Shown: piece after piece, positions 3,741-11,563 of the stretch
How positions within the stretch are numbered: position 1 is the stretch's first letter
How the letters are laid out: each line of letters begins with the position of its first letter
Source: Longimicrobiales bacterium
Lineage (GTDB): Bacteria; Gemmatimonadota; Gemmatimonadetes; Longimicrobiales; Gaopeijiaceae
Assembly: GCA_028280525.1 (NCBI GenBank)
Contig: JANQLR010000241.1
Coordinates: 1-48,941 of the forward strand
Direction of reading: 5' to 3'
Length of the DNA stretch: 48,941 nt
Program-made: the position numbers and the translations under genes
Notes under the pieces: generated by a model
The model's database searches: none
Told to the model about the DNA's origin: nothing
Seen by the model: only the letters and a program-made list of their open reading frames with translations

Positions 3741-3761
3741 GACCTTCATCGGCTCCGAGCC

Positions 3762-3845
3762 GAATCACGAATCGGGAACGTCGGCAGAACTCGCAGAAGG
3801 AGTGTCCCTGGAACGCGCGGTTCCCCGGAGAGGTAGCCACCGACG
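3762..3845 (+). pseudogene. queG: queG 3'-end fragment, copy B (short)
   Basis: The same 16-mer GAATCACGAATCGGGA (3762-3777) is followed 32 bases from its start by codons for QKECPWNARFPGEVA, matching copy A. Homology ends where the carbamoyltransferase stop codon begins (3846). Only about 20 codons of queG remain. Confidence 0.65.
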
Positions 3846-4793
3846 CTAGCTCTCGGGCAGGGACGCTTCGCCGCCGCCCAGGAGTTCGAAGAGGATCGCC
3901 TTCTCGGTGTGAAGCCGATTCTCCGCCTGATCGAACACGATCGACTGTCGGCCGTCGATCACCCCCTCCGTCACCTCGTGACCACGCCACGCGGGCAGGC
4001 AGTGCATGAAGACCGCGTCCTCACGGGCCAGCGCCATGAGCGACTCCGTCACGCGATACGGTCCAAGATCGCCGAGGCGTCGTTCCTTCTCCTCATCCGC
4101 GACGCGGTACGACATCCACGAATCCGTGTAGACGACGTGCGCGTCGCGCACGGCCGCCGCCGGGTCCGGGGTCACCGATACGGAGCCGGAGCCCTCTATG
4201 GAGGCAAGCTCGTCCGTCACCGCGGGGTCGGGGCTGTAGTCTTCGGACGCAGGACACCCGATGCGGAGCTGGTTGCCGGTCATCACGGCCGCGCGCATCA
4301 GCGAATAGGTGACGTTGTTCTTCGCGTCGCCGACGTAGGCGATCGTCAGCCCCGTCTCCCGCCCGAACCTCTCCTTCATCGTGAGGAAGTCGCCGAGGAT
4401 CTGACAGGGGTGTCCGACGTTCGTCATCGCGTTGATGACCGGAACCTCGGCGTGCACTGCGAGCTTGGTCAGCTCTTCGTGCGAGAACATCCGGACGGAC
4501 ACCGCGTTGCAGTATCGGCTCAGCGTGCGGGCGACGTCCTCGATCGACTCCTTACCGGCGCCCCAGGGCGAGTGGATCGTGTAGTAGTTGATCGCGTGAC
4601 CGTGGAGCTGCGTCATCGCGGTCTCGAACGACAGGCGCGTCCGTAGCGACGGCGCCTCGAAGATCATCAGGAGGACCTGCTCGTACAGCGCACGGATGTA
4701 GCGATCCGGTCCGAGCTTCATGTCGGTGGCCCGCCGGAGGATCGTCTCGAACTCGGGCAGGGAGAGATCGGTGATCGTGAGCAGGTGTCGCAT
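3846..4793 (-). CDS. Carbamoyltransferase of the OTC superfamily, substrate uncertain
   Basis: The product is 315 aa, the usual length for ornithine carbamoyltransferase. The carbamoyl-phosphate site is present: SLRTR (49-53), HPCQ (128-131) and HCLP (264-267). The C-terminal FDQAENRLHTEKAIL is classic for the family. The amino-acid-binding loop, DxxxSMG in true OTCs, reads DSWMSYR (224-230), so ornithine may not be the acceptor. It is the last gene of an operon with a cDPGS-like GTPase (9-base gap) and carbamate kinase. No arginine deiminase or other arginine synthesis gene is nearby. I expect cytosolic transfer between carbamoyl phosphate and an amine whose identity is open. A generic annotation would be argF, which I avoid because of the loop. 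Confidence 0.85.
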   Translation of the reverse strand: MRHLLTITDLSLPEFETILRRATDMKLGPDRYIRALYEQVLLMIFEAPSLRTRLSFETAMTQLHGHAINYYTIHSPWGAGKESIEDVARTLSRYCNAVSVRMFSHEELTKLAVHAEVPVINAMTNVGHPCQILGDFLTMKERFGRETGLTIAYVGDAKNNVTYSLMRAAVMTGNQLRIGCPASEDYSPDPAVTDELASIEGSGSVSVTPDPAAAVRDAHVVYTDSWMSYRVADEEKERRLGDLGPYRVTESLMALAREDAVFMHCLPAWRGHEVTEGVIDGRQSIVFDQAENRLHTEKAILFELLGGGEASLPES

Positions 4794-4802
4794 GACTCGC
4801 CC

Positions 4803-6119
4803 TCAGATGAGGTTCCGTTCGCGAAGGAGCTGTTCGAGCTCGGCCATGCTGGCCTCTCCCAGCTCGTAGCCGACGCTGACGACGGGCTTCTCGAAATCGA
4901 TGACGCGTTCGAGGTTGGCCGGCGAACCGTCGACTACCACGTCACAGTCGATCGCGTTGACCGTTTCCTGCAGCTCGAGCACCTGCTCCCGGCTGTAGCC
5001 CATGGCCGGGATCTCCGAACCCAGGTGCGGATACTTCCGGTAGGTCTCGAGGATCGATCCGACGAGCTGTGCCTGAGGATCGACGATCTCGCCGCCGTGC
5101 CTCTCCACCGCGAGCGAGCCCGCCCCGGACTTCAGGCCGCCGTGCGACAGGGTCGGACCGTCGCCGATCACGGCACACCGCTTGCCGCGGATGGCTTCGG
5201 GGTCCGGCACCGTCAGCTCGGAGCGCGCGCGAATGACCGTCGCCGCGGGCTGGTGCTGGCGAACCGTGGCCTCTACCGCGGCGACGTCCTCGGCGCTGGC
5301 GCTGTCGACCTTGTTGATCACGACCGCATCCGCCAGCAGCAGGTTCAGGTAGCCGGGGTAGTAGCTCGTTTCGTGTCCCTGCCGGTGGGGATCGACGACC
5401 GTGACCTGAAGATCCGGCTGGATCATCGAGATGTCGTTGTTCCCGCCGTCGAACAGCAGGACGTCCCCTTCTGCCGATGCCTGGTCGACGATCTCCCGAT
5501 AGTCGAAGCCGGCGTAGATCGGGAATCCGTGGTCCAACCACGGCTGATACTCCTCCTCTTCCTCGATCGTCGTCTCGTGGCGACGGAAGTCCTCCTGCGT
5601 GGCGAAGCGCTGGCAGGCCTGCTTCGTCAGGTCGGTGCCGTAGGGCATGCTGTGGCGGATCGCGATTGGTCGCCGCCCGTTGGCCCGGAGGATCTCTGCC
5701 ACGGCGCGGGCGGTCTGCGACTTTCCGCATCCGGTCCGGACGGCGGTGACCGCGATCACCGGCTTCTCCGCCTCGACCCAGGTGTCGCGCGGCCCCAGCA
5801 GCATGAAGTTCGCGCCGGCCCGCATCGCTCGCGAAGCCTTCTCCATTACCTCCTGATGGGAGATGTCGGAGTAGGCGAGGCAGACGTGGTCGACGTCGTG
5901 TGCTTCGATCAGCGCGTCGAGCTCGCTCTCTGGATGGATCGGGATTCCCTCCGGATAGCGCTCGCCGGCCAGCTCCGCCGGGAACACGCGGCCCTCGATC
6001 CCGGGGATCTGCTCGGCCGTGAACGCGACGACGCGGAAGTCCGGCCTGGGCTTGAAGTACGTGAGGAAGTTGTGGAAGTCGCGACCGGCGGCACCGAGAA
6101 TGATGACGTTCTGCTTCAT
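4803..6119 (-). CDS. Cyclic 2,3-diphosphoglycerate synthetase-like GTPase
   Basis: The product is 438 aa. An N-terminal Rossmann-like part (VIILGAAGRDFHNF) is followed by a P-loop at RTGCGKS (128-134), a Walker B-like LLFDGGNND (about 221-229) and NKVD (269-272), the guanine-specificity motif of GTPases. This arrangement matches homologues of archaeal cDPG synthetase, which also occur in bacteria. The start overlaps the carbamate kinase stop in ATGA, and the carbamoyltransferase follows 9 bases after the stop, so the three are co-translated. The archaeal reaction (cyclising 2,3-diphosphoglycerate with ATP) need not apply here. The operon hints at a role tied to carbamoyl phosphate or another phosphorylated metabolite. 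Confidence 0.75.
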   Translation of the reverse strand: MKQNVIILGAAGRDFHNFLTYFKPRPDFRVVAFTAEQIPGIEGRVFPAELAGERYPEGIPIHPESELDALIEAHDVDHVCLAYSDISHQEVMEKASRAMRAGANFMLLGPRDTWVEAEKPVIAVTAVRTGCGKSQTARAVAEILRANGRRPIAIRHSMPYGTDLTKQACQRFATQEDFRRHETTIEEEEEYQPWLDHGFPIYAGFDYREIVDQASAEGDVLLFDGGNNDISMIQPDLQVTVVDPHRQGHETSYYPGYLNLLLADAVVINKVDSASAEDVAAVEATVRQHQPAATVIRARSELTVPDPEAIRGKRCAVIGDGPTLSHGGLKSGAGSLAVERHGGEIVDPQAQLVGSILETYRKYPHLGSEIPAMGYSREQVLELQETVNAIDCDVVVDGSPANLERVIDFEKPVVSVGYELGEASMAELEQLLRERNLI

Positions 6120-7096
6120 GTGATCGTGGTCCCGTGTTCTTGGCGAAGCGCGGACTCGAGGTGTTCCGCGTCCGTGATTGTGACGGCCTGGCCACCGGCT
6201 CGGAGGAAGTCGATCGCCGCATCGACCTTGGGCCCCATCGAGCCCTCCGGGAAGTGCCCCTCGCGGAGCAGCGACTCGGCCTCATCGACCGTGAGTGTGC
6301 GCAGCGCTGTCTGGTTCGGCGTCCGGTAGTCGCGGTAGACCGCGGGTTCGCCGGTGAGGATGATCAGGCGTGGCGCGTGGATCCCACGCGCGAGGATCGC
6401 CGACGCGCGATCCTTGTCGATGACGGCAGGCACGCCCTCGAGGGCTTCGCCGCGGCGCACCACCGGCACGCCCCCGCCGCCGGCGGCCACGACGATCACG
6501 GGCTTCTCGAGCATCCACTCGAGAACCTCCACGTCGTCGATCTCGAGGGGCCGCGGCGATGCGACGACCTTCCGCCAGCCACGGCCCGGCTCGTGGGCGA
6601 CCGAGAAGCCCCTGGCCACGAGCGCGTCGGCCTGCTCCTTCGTGTAGCTGGGGCCGATCGGCTTCGTTGGTCGCGCGAACGCCGGGTCCTCCGGATCGAC
6701 GACGACCTGCGTGAGGACGCTCACGACGGGCATCCGGATGCCCGCCGCGGTGAGGGCGTTCTGCAGCGATTGCTCGATGAGGTAGCCGATCTCGCCCTGG
6801 GACTCGGCCACGCAGACCTCGAGGGGGATCTGATACGCCTTCCCGAGCGACTCCTCGACCCGGGTCAGGATGCTGCCCACCTGGAAGCCGTTGCCGTGCG
6901 TGACCACGAGCCGGGCTCCGCTCTCGATCAGCGGAACGAGGGCGGCCATCGCCCGTCGCACGTTCCCCGCCTGCGTCGCGATCGTAGGCTCCTCACCGTC
7001 GCGAACCAGGGCGTTACCACCGAGCGCGACGACGACCTTGGAGCCACGGTCGATCAGCGCCGGAGCATCGGGATCGGGCTGTCGGGGGAGGTTCAT
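6116..7096 (-). CDS. arcC: Carbamate kinase
   Basis: The product is 326 aa, close to the usual 310. It interconverts carbamoyl phosphate plus ADP with carbamate plus ATP in the cytosol, usually to make ATP. Visible family features are VVVALGGNAL near the N-terminus, LVVTHGNGFQVG, VVAAGGGGVPVV, VIDKDRASAILA and the C-terminal GHFPEGSMGPKVDAAIDFL. I chose ATG 7096 because the longer frame to 7369 adds about 90 low-complexity residues absent from the family. It is the first gene of the minus-strand operon and overlaps the next by 4 bases. Confidence 0.9.
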   Translation of the reverse strand: MNLPRQPDPDAPALIDRGSKVVVALGGNALVRDGEEPTIATQAGNVRRAMAALVPLIESGARLVVTHGNGFQVGSILTRVEESLGKAYQIPLEVCVAESQGEIGYLIEQSLQNALTAAGIRMPVVSVLTQVVVDPEDPAFARPTKPIGPSYTKEQADALVARGFSVAHEPGRGWRKVVASPRPLEIDDVEVLEWMLEKPVIVVAAGGGGVPVVRRGEALEGVPAVIDKDRASAILARGIHAPRLIILTGEPAVYRDYRTPNQTALRTLTVDEAESLLREGHFPEGSMGPKVDAAIDFLRAGGQAVTITDAEHLESALRQEHGTTIT

Positions 7097-7405
7097 GGCA
7101 CGGGCGGGTGGAGCGGGGGATGGGGATCCGACCGATCTGAGCGGTAAAGTGTTGTGCCTGTGAAAGAAGGATGCGACGGACCCCTCGCCGGAGACAAGGA
7201 TTCTGGAGGCCGATCCCGGGGGGCCTCCGTCCGCCGTGGGCTCACCTGCGGGGCCCTTTCCGGCGGGAGGAGGAATCCGGCCATGTCCTTCGCCTGTGAC
7301 CGGGTCCCGCGTGTGCAACACGATGGGTCGAACGGCCCTCCGCTTCAGTTCGCAGCGATCCCTCGGCACGCCACATCAGAAGCTGAATCGGTCCCTCCCG
7401 AAGCG
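7097..7405. other. Upstream region of the carbamate kinase operon
   Basis: This 309-base stretch should contain the leftward promoter of the kinase operon, but I could not pick out convincing -35/-10 boxes. No open frame in it resembles a known protein. Confidence 0.4.
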
Positions 7406-7827
7406 GGATCGAGATTCTCGTGTACCGACACTCCGCCCAGGAGGTGTGTCCGTGGAATGCGCGGTTTCCAGCGCAGGTGGCGGACGCACCTCGCGCAGCG
7501 GAGGCGGTGTAGGCGTACGCGGCGCATGCGTGGCCGGCGGATCGTGAGGAGGAGCTTCCACTCCCCGCGCTCGACGGGCCCGACCTCGTCGAGTTCACCG
7601 AGCGCGTGCTGGCCATGTCCGGGAAGGCGTACCAGCGGGTGTTCGCCCGCTCCCCACTCGGACGCCCCGGCCGGAAGGGGATGCTGCGGAATCTGTGCGT
7701 GGCGCTGGGGAACTACGGGCGCACGTCAGCGGGTGCGGCGGAGCGGGTGCGGCCGGTGCTGGAGCAGGCCGCGGCGGACCGGTCGGAGCTGGTGCGGGAG
7801 CACGCGGCGTGGGGCCTGAAGGGATAG
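7406..7827 (+). pseudogene. queG: queG 3'-end fragment, copy C
   Basis: This is the best-preserved copy. From 7438 one frame reads QEVCPWNARFPAQVADAP, then a single TAG at 7510-7512, then LPALDGPDLVEFTERVLAMSG, RSPLGRPGRKGMLRNLCVALGN and REHAAWGLKG to a stop at 7825-7827. This is the C-terminal third of epoxyqueuosine reductase. The 30 bases around the start of homology are identical to copy D. The 16-mer seen in copies A, B and D is not conserved here. A product from ATG 7615 would be only about 70 aa. Confidence 0.75.
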
Positions 7828-8320: not shown

Positions 8321-11300
8321 CTACGTCCTCGTCAACGAAAGCCCCGCCGCACCGTACAGGGTGAACGCGAGCCCGAGCGGGTTCAGTTGGCTGAGCAACC
8401 CCCGACGCACCATGAGTAGCGCGGAGCCCGCCGGATCCCCCCTAAGGAACCTTCGCAGGAACTCTCGGGCGACCTCGCCAGCCAGGACCTCATAGACCTG
8501 GATCTCGGTTCCGATCACCCCGGATGCGCCCCTGCCCCGCACGAGCTTGCGAATGAATGGAGAAAGGGCGTCCGGGCTGAACGCCGCGGTCCCGCACCCG
8601 TTGAGCATGACGAGGGGGCTGTGGGCCCACTTCTCCGCATGATCCAGGGCACCGGGATACACGACGCGAGGCTCGGGGTCCTGAAGGTCCTGGAACACGA
8701 GGCGAGGCCTCGTGCCGTCGATCTGCCCACCCTCGGCATGACAGTAGAGGTAGATCACGTCCAGGTCCGGGTCCGTGAGGCTGTCTAGCAGCCTGTCTCG
8801 CTCCGTCTCGACGAAGCTCCATCGGGCGGCGACTTCGGGCTCCTGGGCCAGCGCCGCCAATTCGGTGCGGTGGTCGTCCGCCCGGGGCAGTCGTGCGTTC
8901 AGGCCGGCCCCCATGAGGGGCGTGGCGCCGGCGGCCACCGCCCCGGACCGGTCCGCGGTCCTGCCCCTCCGGTCGGCCTGCAGGGGCGGCAGCTCGATCA
9001 CATGCCTGAACCCCAGGAAGTTCAGAGGGCACACGACGGTGTCCGACCTAAATGCCGGGAGCCCCGCCTGTGATCGGGCCTTCGCGGTGTCCTCGTGCAG
9101 AAGGCATTCGGGCCGTTCGCCGCATTTCGTGGCGGGCAGCAAACCGTGCGCGCCGGGGATGCACGCGAGACACACGTCGTGGGCGACAGCGTGTCCGTTC
9201 CCGTCGGTCCGCCGATGCGGGTCGTACCTAGTGGTGTACAGAGCCGCCCAGGGGACGACGTCTTCCAGCAGCACATGCGCCACCTCGATGACCTTCTGCT
9301 CCCCCTCAAGCATCTCCATGAGCTGTGGACGGTCGTCCTCGTAGACCAGGCGGTCGAAGAGCTCCCACCCCTCTTCGGCGAGCATGGGGAGTACCTCTTT
9401 GAAGTCCGCCTCCCGGGCCGCATTCAGCCGATCGGGCCCGAGGCCGAAACGATACGGCCACTGGTCCCGGGGGACGTCGTCGACGGGCCGTCGGGTCACG
9501 GCGTCGAGGGTGTTCCTGACCCGGGCGACCCACTCGTCCACATCGCCGGCAGAGTCGATCTCGGCGTGGACCCCCGAGGCCTTGACCGAGATCACCCGCT
9601 TCCCGTCGTTGTGGTTCGCGACGATGCTCATGTCCCGACCAGGCAACTCGCTCATGCGCGCCGGATCGCCGAGGCTCCCGTACTCGAGTCTCGCCATGTA
9701 GCCAGCATCTCCCACCTTCCCCAGCGGAAGGTCCAGCGCCTTTGCCAGGGCTTCCCGGCGCGCGGAGGCCCGCCGCGCACGTCCACCCGGCGAGCGGGTT
9801 GCGGCCGCGACCCGGAACGACTGCACGAGCTGTTGCCTGTAGTAGACGCAGAAGCGAAGGCGGGATACGCCGCGCTTCCCGGGAATCACGGCGAAGTAGA
9901 GGGGATCGCTGGGCGCGTCCTTCGGCAGCCACAGCTCCTGGACCGAATGCCCGACAAGCTGGAAGTCGAGACCCGTGATGGCGACCTCGACCCAGACGCC
10001 CTCCTTCTCGGGGGCCCACTGGAAGATCTCCTCGATGACCGCCGCGGCCCCTACGGTTCGGACGTCGACACGGCGAGGCCCGATGTCCACACCGAGGTGG
10101 TAGACCGATCCAACGTCCAGCGCCGTGATCTCCTGCGGTACGAGCGTGAGTCCTTCGGCCGCAGCCTCCGTGTAGAACGCCGAGTTCACGAAACGTCGTC
10201 CCCTCACGCTCGGCACGACCTCGCTCCTGTTCGCGGGTCCCTCCGAACCAACGAGGTCGCGCATGAGGGTCAGTCGTTCCGCGAGCGGCAGTAGGCCGTC
10301 GCTCTCGTGGAACTCGAACTCGAACGCGTCCCAGTCCTCCGAGAGTCGCCGGGCCTCGCGCGCCATCCCCTGGAACCGATTCCTGCGGTCCAGGGGCGTG
10401 TCGTCGACGCTCCTTCGGCGCACCATCGACCGGATGCTTCGGCCCCGGGTGCGGCTCTCCATCGGGAGCTCGTGCATGGCGATCCGGGCCACGTTCTCGG
10501 GCAACTGATACGCGGGCTCCCGCGAGGTTCGAGACCTTGACGACGCCGCCAGGTCCCGCCCCAGGTCGAGCAAGCCGATGCCCACGGTGGAGACGCGAAG
10601 CGCCTCCTCCCGTCCGGCGCCGCCGAACAGCGTAGCCCTCAAGGGCGCCCCCCAGTTCGCGTCCAGGAATGCGGCATCGAGGGCGAAGTCGTGCACCAGG
10701 TTCCAGTAGAAGCCGGGCGTGTTGAACCCCTCCTGCCTGATGCCTGACAGCGGGCCCGTGACCACGGCGGGCCCGCCCCTCGCGGTGAGCGCATGGGCGA
10801 CTGCCCTCGCGACTCGATGCTGTTCGGGCGTCCAGGCGTCGATCAGGATGAGCCGGGTTTGCCAGATGTGGGCGAACCGGGCCAGCCAGCCGACGGAACC
10901 GAATGCGTCCGGTGCGCCCCACGCGAGGGCGCTGGAAGGTTCGTCCAGCGTCGGCAGCTCGTCGATGTGCAGGATGTCCGCCGTCGGCCACTCCGCGTTC
11001 GGTTGCCAGTCGGCCAGTTCGCCCTCGCGCACCTCGCGGTAGTCGAAGGCCCTGCGCACGAGTTCCTCTGGCTGGCTCCCGAAAACTCCCCGGACCTGTT
11101 CGCCCAACGGAGGTGAGTTCGGGGCGGTCACGTGAACCAGCCGAAGCGGAAGGCTGAGGGGGATCCACGCGCCGCGCCGCTTCAAGGGCGTCACCCGCAC
11201 CTGGGCGCATCCGTTCGCGACAGCCAGGGGTTCGAGCACGGACTCCCAGTCCAGGGCCGCGAGCTCGACGGGGCCTCGCACGTCGACGGTGATTCTCGGC

Positions 11301-11563
11301 ACGAGCTGTGCCATTCCCTCCAGCGGCGCCGCGACATCCGCAGACACGAGGGACGCCAGCCGCGACTGCAGGTCCAGAGCAGCGGGGAGGTCCGGCGGTA
11401 CCCCGCCCGCCTCTTTGCACAACGCAACCCATGCCGCGTCCAGTGCGGTGGTGCGCGCGAGTGCGGGCTGATCCACCGGCCCGGAATGGATGACGGCGCC
11501 ACCGTCCGTCCCGGGCTCGACCCGGAGCGAGAAGTCGACTCGCCGGTACTCGATGCGGGCCAT
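8321..11563 (-). CDS. CHAT-domain cysteine protease, large
   Basis: The product is 1080 aa. The C-terminus is a caspase-like CHAT domain: LYCHAEGG places the catalytic His at 942 and VMLNGCGTAAF the catalytic Cys at 990. ASGVIGTE and LNPLGLAFTLYG complete the fold. Residues about 60-290 look like a second, degenerate CHAT fold (LRLVHVTAPN, ADILHIDELP, GGPAVVTG) without the His/Cys pair. The middle (about 480-640) looks beta-rich. There is no signal peptide, so it should act in the cytosol. It is the last gene of a five-gene operon, 3 bases after the membrane coiled-coil gene, with GGAGG 8 bases before its ATG. CHAT proteases elsewhere serve in immunity and regulated proteolysis; the target here is unknown. 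Confidence 0.8.
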   Translation of the reverse strand: MARIEYRRVDFSLRVEPGTDGGAVIHSGPVDQPALARTTALDAAWVALCKEAGGVPPDLPAALDLQSRLASLVSADVAAPLEGMAQLVPRITVDVRGPVELAALDWESVLEPLAVANGCAQVRVTPLKRRGAWIPLSLPLRLVHVTAPNSPPLGEQVRGVFGSQPEELVRRAFDYREVREGELADWQPNAEWPTADILHIDELPTLDEPSSALAWGAPDAFGSVGWLARFAHIWQTRLILIDAWTPEQHRVARAVAHALTARGGPAVVTGPLSGIRQEGFNTPGFYWNLVHDFALDAAFLDANWGAPLRATLFGGAGREEALRVSTVGIGLLDLGRDLAASSRSRTSREPAYQLPENVARIAMHELPMESRTRGRSIRSMVRRRSVDDTPLDRRNRFQGMAREARRLSEDWDAFEFEFHESDGLLPLAERLTLMRDLVGSEGPANRSEVVPSVRGRRFVNSAFYTEAAAEGLTLVPQEITALDVGSVYHLGVDIGPRRVDVRTVGAAAVIEEIFQWAPEKEGVWVEVAITGLDFQLVGHSVQELWLPKDAPSDPLYFAVIPGKRGVSRLRFCVYYRQQLVQSFRVAAATRSPGGRARRASARREALAKALDLPLGKVGDAGYMARLEYGSLGDPARMSELPGRDMSIVANHNDGKRVISVKASGVHAEIDSAGDVDEWVARVRNTLDAVTRRPVDDVPRDQWPYRFGLGPDRLNAAREADFKEVLPMLAEEGWELFDRLVYEDDRPQLMEMLEGEQKVIEVAHVLLEDVVPWAALYTTRYDPHRRTDGNGHAVAHDVCLACIPGAHGLLPATKCGERPECLLHEDTAKARSQAGLPAFRSDTVVCPLNFLGFRHVIELPPLQADRRGRTADRSGAVAAGATPLMGAGLNARLPRADDHRTELAALAQEPEVAARWSFVETERDRLLDSLTDPDLDVIYLYCHAEGGQIDGTRPRLVFQDLQDPEPRVVYPGALDHAEKWAHSPLVMLNGCGTAAFSPDALSPFIRKLVRGRGASGVIGTEIQVYEVLAGEVAREFLRRFLRGDPAGSALLMVRRGLLSQLNPLGLAFTLYGAAGLSLTRT

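Follow-up and report, generated by a model that had tools for sequence, protein, structure and literature searches.

A probable arginine synthetase operon in a Longimicrobiales bacterium

What pathway is served by an operon in which a P-loop protein lies between a carbamate kinase (CK) and an enzyme of the ornithine carbamoyltransferase (OTC) family, in a genome where arginine deiminase (ADI) is not detected? The question is raised by positions 3846 to 7096 of contig JANQLR010000241.1 (assembly GCA_028280525.1, Longimicrobiales bacterium), within a stretch of 48,941 nucleotides that was analyzed whole and is here called the window. The first-pass annotation of this DNA described three genes in one operon, which may serve a single pathway around carbamoyl phosphate, and both points stood: three co-oriented, tightly packed open reading frames (ORFs) lie on the minus strand, and we read them as one functional unit.

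7096-6116, minus strand: carbamate kinase (CK, arcC), 326 residues from the ATG at 7096
6119-4803, minus strand: P-loop (SIMIBI-type) ligase-like protein, probable arginine synthetase (arcE), 438 residues
4793-3846, minus strand: OTC family with a Giardia-type S-Y-[RHKQ] loop, probable catabolic OTC (arcB), 315 residues

We propose the arginine synthetase pathway as the function of the operon, with the P-loop protein as ArcE (probability about 0.82). The operon is, on this reading, a known pathway in a new host and operon form, not a new pathway.

The operon, its host genome, and the proposed pathway

The P-loop ORF overlaps the CK stop by 4 bases, and the OTC-family ORF begins 9 bases past the P-loop stop. 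The true start of CK is uncertain, because an in-frame GTG lies upstream at 7369 with the frame open throughout, and the profile match begins at residue 20 (about position 7039). CK scored above the NCBIfam arcC equivalog cut-off (TIGR00746, 360.6 against 358.25 bits), and the OTC-family enzyme exceeded two NCBIfam OTC cut-offs (344.5 against 306 and 307.5 against 280.85 bits). The P-loop protein had no NCBIfam match at E 1e-3, and its only Pfam match was to the cobW/HypB/UreG family (24 bits).

The host genome totals 4.15 Mb over 427 contigs and is 94.75% complete. It gave no match to ADI (PF02274), so that the lack of this enzyme, first remarked at the locus, extends genome-wide at that completeness. 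The operon CK is the sole CK match in the genome. A second, canonical ArgF-type OTC gene (loop DTWVSMG; neighbors read by eye as gcvT and hslU) is present, as is the large subunit of carbamoyl phosphate synthetase (CPS), split across two contigs. All three other sampled members of the genus have ADI and CK, adjacent in two of them (G279 and G377), and the ADI of G279 exceeds the TIGR01078 cut-off.

The arginine synthetase pathway of the heat-loving archaeon Thermococcus kodakarensis was reportedly described in a PNAS paper of 2024. In that organism ArcE (TK2200), together with OTC (ArcB, TK0871) and CK (ArcC, TK2158), replaces the ADI route and gains two ATP for each arginine; in organisms that carry ArcC, the occurrence of ArcA and that of ArcE are complementary (PMC13260591). 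In PMC5300872 the name ArcE stands for an arginine/ornithine exchanger. Like the T. kodakarensis pathway, the operon combines OTC and CK without ADI; in both settings ADI and the third protein tend to take each other's place among CK organisms, and the carriers are amino acid or peptide fermenters. Unlike it, the operon is a tight three-gene unit in a bacterium with a canonical OTC and CPS, and its OTC has the S-Y loop; the arc genes of T. kodakarensis appear from their locus numbers to lie apart.

Given the missing ADI step, the synthetase-like fold described below, and the two partner enzymes, we infer a reversible, ATP-forming deimination of arginine. The P-loop protein would bind arginine, ADP-Mg, and phosphate and would catalyze the reaction arginine + ADP + Pi <-> citrulline + NH3 + ATP, following a CTP synthetase-like route with a phosphorylated ureido oxygen. 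The OTC-family enzyme, assigned to its family by sequence, would then run in the phosphorolytic direction, converting citrulline to ornithine and carbamoyl phosphate, and CK, likewise assigned, would move the phosphate to ADP, leaving carbamate to break down to NH3 and CO2. The net yield would be two ATP per arginine against one by the ADI pathway (ArcA, ArcB, ArcC), which has the OTC and CK steps and the overall conversion of arginine to ornithine in common with the operon; the difference is that the operon has no ADI and that its first step would make ATP rather than lose energy. In the host, which has its own ArgF-type OTC and CPS, the operon most likely serves as a catabolic module. By analogy with what has been shown for T. 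kodakarensis, in DPANN archaea without CPS the pathway may also feed carbamoyl phosphate to pyrimidine synthesis.

The fold of the P-loop protein is compatible with such chemistry. An AlphaFold2 model (mean pLDDT 94.2) matched cyclic 2,3-diphosphoglycerate (cDPG) synthetase best (Z 22.4, root mean square deviation 12.3), followed by LpxK, HypB, and UreG. CTP synthetase reached Z 12.5 over 185 residues, and HypB, UreG, ParA-type, and MeaB-type P-loop proteins scored equal to or above it in the structural search. The P-loop fold is shared with CTP synthetase, and the proposed chemistry is drawn by analogy from that enzyme, in which an oxygen is phosphorylated and then displaced by ammonia. The substrate differs, and CTP synthetase carries a glutaminase domain, whereas none was seen in the 438 residues of the P-loop protein. 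Across 60 distinct P-loop proteins, whether or not linked to CK or OTC genes, invariant residues fall in T-G-x-G-K-S, R-x-x-M-x-Y, T-x-E-E-x-E-x-Y, and D-x-G-N-N, a common core that suggests one activity for the family. A literature search found nothing under COG2403, nor on diphosphoglycerate synthetase and carbamate kinase together.

Occurrence of the P-loop protein relative to arginine deiminase

The occurrence of the three proteins was compared in 194 genomes of one DPANN phylum and in 346 genomes of Gemmatimonadota, the phylum of the window. Weak matches were dropped from both samples. In the DPANN phylum this took out 15 of the 33 genomes with a CK match and 4 of the 7 with an ADI-family match. 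In Gemmatimonadota the limit was E 1e-30 for CK, which took out 55 of 196 genomes, and E 1e-35 for the ADI family, which took out 100 of 238; one of 47 P-loop genomes (G244, E 1e-4) was dropped as well. CPS was counted solely above its curated cut-off (27 of 85 genomes).

Among the DPANN genomes, 24 encoded the P-loop protein, 18 a strong CK, and 3 a strong ADI-family protein. Seventeen of the 18 CK genomes carried the P-loop protein and had no PF02274 match even at E 1e-3, while the remaining one (G131) had an ADI-family protein and no P-loop protein; the association between P-loop protein and CK was strong (Fisher p 5.6e-18). Gemmatimonadota held the P-loop protein in 46 genomes, a strong CK in 141, and a strong ADI in 138. 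When the 141 CK genomes were sorted, strong ADI stood alone in 96 and the P-loop protein alone in 19, while 20 genomes had the two together and 6 had neither (odds ratio for P-loop protein and strong ADI 0.066, p 2.7e-8). In a set of 15 genomes, the host included, with CK or OTC close to the P-loop gene, PF02274 found nothing in 14; what it matched in the other one (G012) is a short protein resembling dimethylargininase. We conclude that the P-loop protein stands in for ADI among CK genomes, as in the published pattern. Because a route with an arginine synthetase in the place of ADI has been published and matches this occurrence (PMC13260591), the pathway is not an unassigned one, and the first-pass annotation, which found no role for the GTPase in known arginine pathways, is wrong or outdated on this point.

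The grouping of the genes points the same way. A scan of a genome collection gave 21 loci with the P-loop protein, from Planctomycetota, several DPANN archaea, Thermoplasmatota, and Thermoproteota-type archaea. All three genes lay in one fetched stretch at 8 of these, CK and the P-loop gene at 2, the P-loop gene and OTC at 4, and neither partner at 7; among the 8 full trios, other genes intervene in two (L010 and L012) and CK is on the opposite strand in one (L021). At 19 further loci from one DPANN phylum the counts were 11 with all three, 1 with CK only, 1 with OTC only, and 6 with neither. With the trio at 8 of 21 and 11 of 19 loci, the grouping is not due to chance, and it is conserved. 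Genes for aminotransferases of classes I and III, aldehyde dehydrogenase, M42 peptidase, an amino acid permease, and glutamate dehydrogenase recur nearby in DPANN archaea, and one locus has an M32 carboxypeptidase. These neighbors fit a setting of amino acid fermentation in which ornithine would be passed to glutamate.

Several observations weigh against the arginine synthetase pathway as we have drawn it. The assignment of the P-loop protein to the ArcE family is drawn from occurrence and partners, and the Fisher tests ignore the relatedness of the genomes. In the DPANN phylum, 7 of the 24 P-loop genomes have no CK, and the ADI of G131 is divergent (81 bits against the TIGR01078 cut-off of 489). 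In Gemmatimonadota, 20 of the 46 P-loop genomes carry CK and strong ADI as well, 7 of the 46 are without a strong CK, and no CK or OTC gene was found at any of 20 P-loop loci (of the 46) in fetched stretches of 9 to 15 kb, several of them at contig ends. Two genus mates of the host (G285 and G377) hold ADI, CK, and the P-loop protein together, with the P-loop gene elsewhere. A weak PF02274 match occurs in 14 of the 19 genomes scored as P-loop only, and when weak matches are counted as ADI the Gemmatimonadota contrast becomes 34 of 39 against 98 of 102 (p 0.12). Short ADI relatives of about 300 residues are found in Gemmatimonadota and G012 (L156 to L159); three of them (L157 to L159, two from Gemmatimonadota and one from G012) match dimethylargininase models over their full length, and none of the three comes from those 14 genomes. 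The strong ADI matches themselves are uneven: in the 138 genomes E was below 1e-100 in 9 and weaker in 129, and the four scanned from the weaker group all fell under the ADI model cut-offs, yet match the Pfam family over its length. Since some of the 129 are fragments and four of four scanned were below the cut-offs, calling these 129 ADI is presumptive. Finally, the operon OTC is without the DxxxSMG loop, and Ala replaces the Lys of its FxKxSxRT motif (FEAPSLRT).

Three loci show other arrangements. At two of them (L097 and L023) CK adjoins the P-loop gene with no OTC within the fetched stretch, and the P-loop gene of L023 is split into two overlapping ORFs. In Archaeon HR01 (L019) the P-loop gene lies among argG, argH, and LysX-, LysJ-, and LysZ-like arginine synthesis genes, as read by eye, a context that hints at use of the protein in the synthetic direction.

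The carbamoyltransferase loop and alternative activities

The missing DxxxSMG loop and the replaced Lys bear on whether the operon OTC uses ornithine. Its carbamoyl phosphate site is kept, with SxRT, HPxQ, and HCLP present, and its acceptor loop reads DSWMSYR, both as originally described; the claim that this makes it a non-ornithine enzyme did not hold. In an alignment of 42 distinct OTC rows, from which identical sequences were left out, the S-Y loop occurs in 24, of which 22 are linked to a P-loop gene and the others are L094 (which adjoins a P-loop gene with an internal stop) and the Giardia lamblia OTC (3grf). These 24 form one clade with support 1.0; the linked OTCs of L010 and L014 have the canonical SMG loop. 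The Giardia enzyme is the best solved match to the operon OTC (E 4e-73), its loop reads DSWMSYH, and PMC5052871 treats it as the ornithine enzyme of a characterized ADI pathway. The SMG motif therefore does not mark every OTC, since it is missing from the whole clade, Giardia OTC included, and the position of the Giardia OTC inside the clade makes the S-Y loop a mark of a subfamily rather than a sign of another acceptor. The two enzymes differ in that Giardia OTC works with ADI and has Lys at the third position of FxKxSxRT, where the operon OTC has Ala.

The trio could instead degrade some other guanidino or ureido compound, such as agmatine, homoarginine, or canavanine, in which case its OTC-like enzyme would act on another amine. 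We consider this improbable. The SYR loop in place of SMG would fit it, as would the replacement of Lys by Ala in the operon OTC and eight other members of the clade, Lys being kept in 12 of the 24. However, Giardia OTC has the same S-Y loop, and the operon enzyme keeps the ornithine-binding N, D, and S of E. coli OTC (PMC4581275). The marks of putrescine carbamoyltransferase, the Gln of FxQxSxRT and a [YW][GW] loop (PMC4581275), are absent as well. Putrescine carbamoyltransferase was rejected as a candidate, with FEAPSLRT and SYR found instead and a score of 241 bits against a cut-off of 500, and so was the knotted YgeW type (32 bits against 453).

A split carbamoyl phosphate synthetase, in which the P-loop protein makes carbamate from NTP, bicarbonate, and NH3, CK phosphorylates it, and OTC uses the product anabolically, is in our view very improbable. 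It would account for nine DPANN genomes (G001, G004, G006, G007, G008, G010, G011, G019, and G020) in which CK or OTC lies close to the P-loop gene and no CPS match exceeds the cut-off. At least three of these (G001, G004, and G006), with a linked pair or operon, have an aspartate carbamoyltransferase-type second gene and, because of it, need carbamoyl phosphate. CPS is nevertheless present in the host and in three Planctomycetota that have the operon, whole or as CK plus P-loop gene, and in the DPANN phylum the P-loop protein and CPS are not significantly exclusive (1 of 24 against 26 of 170, p 0.21); the exclusion pattern of the P-loop protein concerns ADI, not CPS. The neighboring genes are catabolic, and the CK of T. 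kodakarensis gave too little carbamoyl phosphate for growth (PMC13260591).

That the P-loop protein is a cDPG synthetase merely standing beside an OTC-CK pair, an outcome that the first-pass annotation named as one that would defeat its pathway idea, is hardly credible: this is its nearest solved fold and the name given to a relative in a haloarchaeal record, but sequence likeness is weak (E 8e-6), the gene is tightly linked to CK and complementary with ADI, and the 2,3-diphosphoglycerate-binding residues of the P-loop are replaced. The residues in question are K145 and R146 of the solved enzyme, according to PMC10690619; in an alignment to 9sxb, whose motif is also K-R, they correspond to T129 and G130, which are invariant in the 60 family members. 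The cDPG synthetases (8oru, 8ork, and 9sxb) thus have the overall two-domain fold in common with the P-loop protein and differ from it in these residues and in gene context. The methanogen osmolyte enzyme's name, attached to relatives of the P-loop gene in that one haloarchaeal record, is likely a misannotation. In that record, a plasmid (L141, NZ_CP147842.1), arcC and a gene named "cyclic 2,3-diphosphoglycerate synthase" adjoin and are divergent, with an amino acid permease about 7 kb off.

Origin of the operon and its surroundings

In a tree of 60 P-loop sequences (identical sequences, fragments shorter than 370 residues, and sequences with internal stops being left out), the operon protein grouped with three Planctomycetota (support 1.0) and then with Woesearchaeota (0.93). 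Its distance to the nearest of 20 Gemmatimonadota sequences was 1.64, against 0.63 to the nearest Planctomycetota sequence. The OTC tree agrees, placing the operon OTC with two Planctomycetota (support 0.999). Because the trees group the operon with Planctomycetota and DPANN archaea, far from its sampled relatives, it was probably acquired horizontally as one block, the simplest reading of these data.

A bolder scenario, which we regard as speculative and rather unlikely, is that the S-Y-loop OTC co-evolved with the P-loop protein, the one passing citrulline (or another ureido compound) to the other. The module would then have moved as a block among DPANN archaea, Planctomycetota, and Gemmatimonadota, displacing the ADI pathway in the host lineage, and this OTC type would have reached metamonad eukaryotes. 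The nesting of Giardia OTC, the one eukaryotic sequence included, within a prokaryotic clade is a hint at the origin of metamonad OTC.

The S-Y loop is a simple motif by which most OTCs from these operons can be recognized in sequence. If the arginine synthetase assignment is correct, many DPANN archaea, Planctomycetota, and other bacteria would gain an explained route to two ATP per arginine, organisms without CPS would gain a source of carbamoyl phosphate, and OTC-CK pairs without ADI would become interpretable.

Other features were seen around the P-loop genes. At three DPANN loci the P-loop gene is directly followed, on the other strand, by a related ORF of 378 to 417 residues (L003:1347-2483, L010:7296-8522, and L012:7301-8554, minus strand). 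The L012 copy had no Pfam match, and our guess is a homing endonuclease. Upstream of the operon in the window, positions 8321-11563 (minus strand) encode a 1080-residue protein with a C-terminal CHAT (caspase-like) domain; it is adjoined by an 803-residue ORF for which no NCBIfam family was found. Degenerate direct repeats, 70 to 79% alike, occur on the plus strand at 1954-2405, 3755-3837, and 7399-7817 and resemble the 3' end of queG (TIGR00276, E 4.8e-4 for 2160-2405). The operon sits between the second and third of these queG-like repeats, as if at a site of repeated gene gain.

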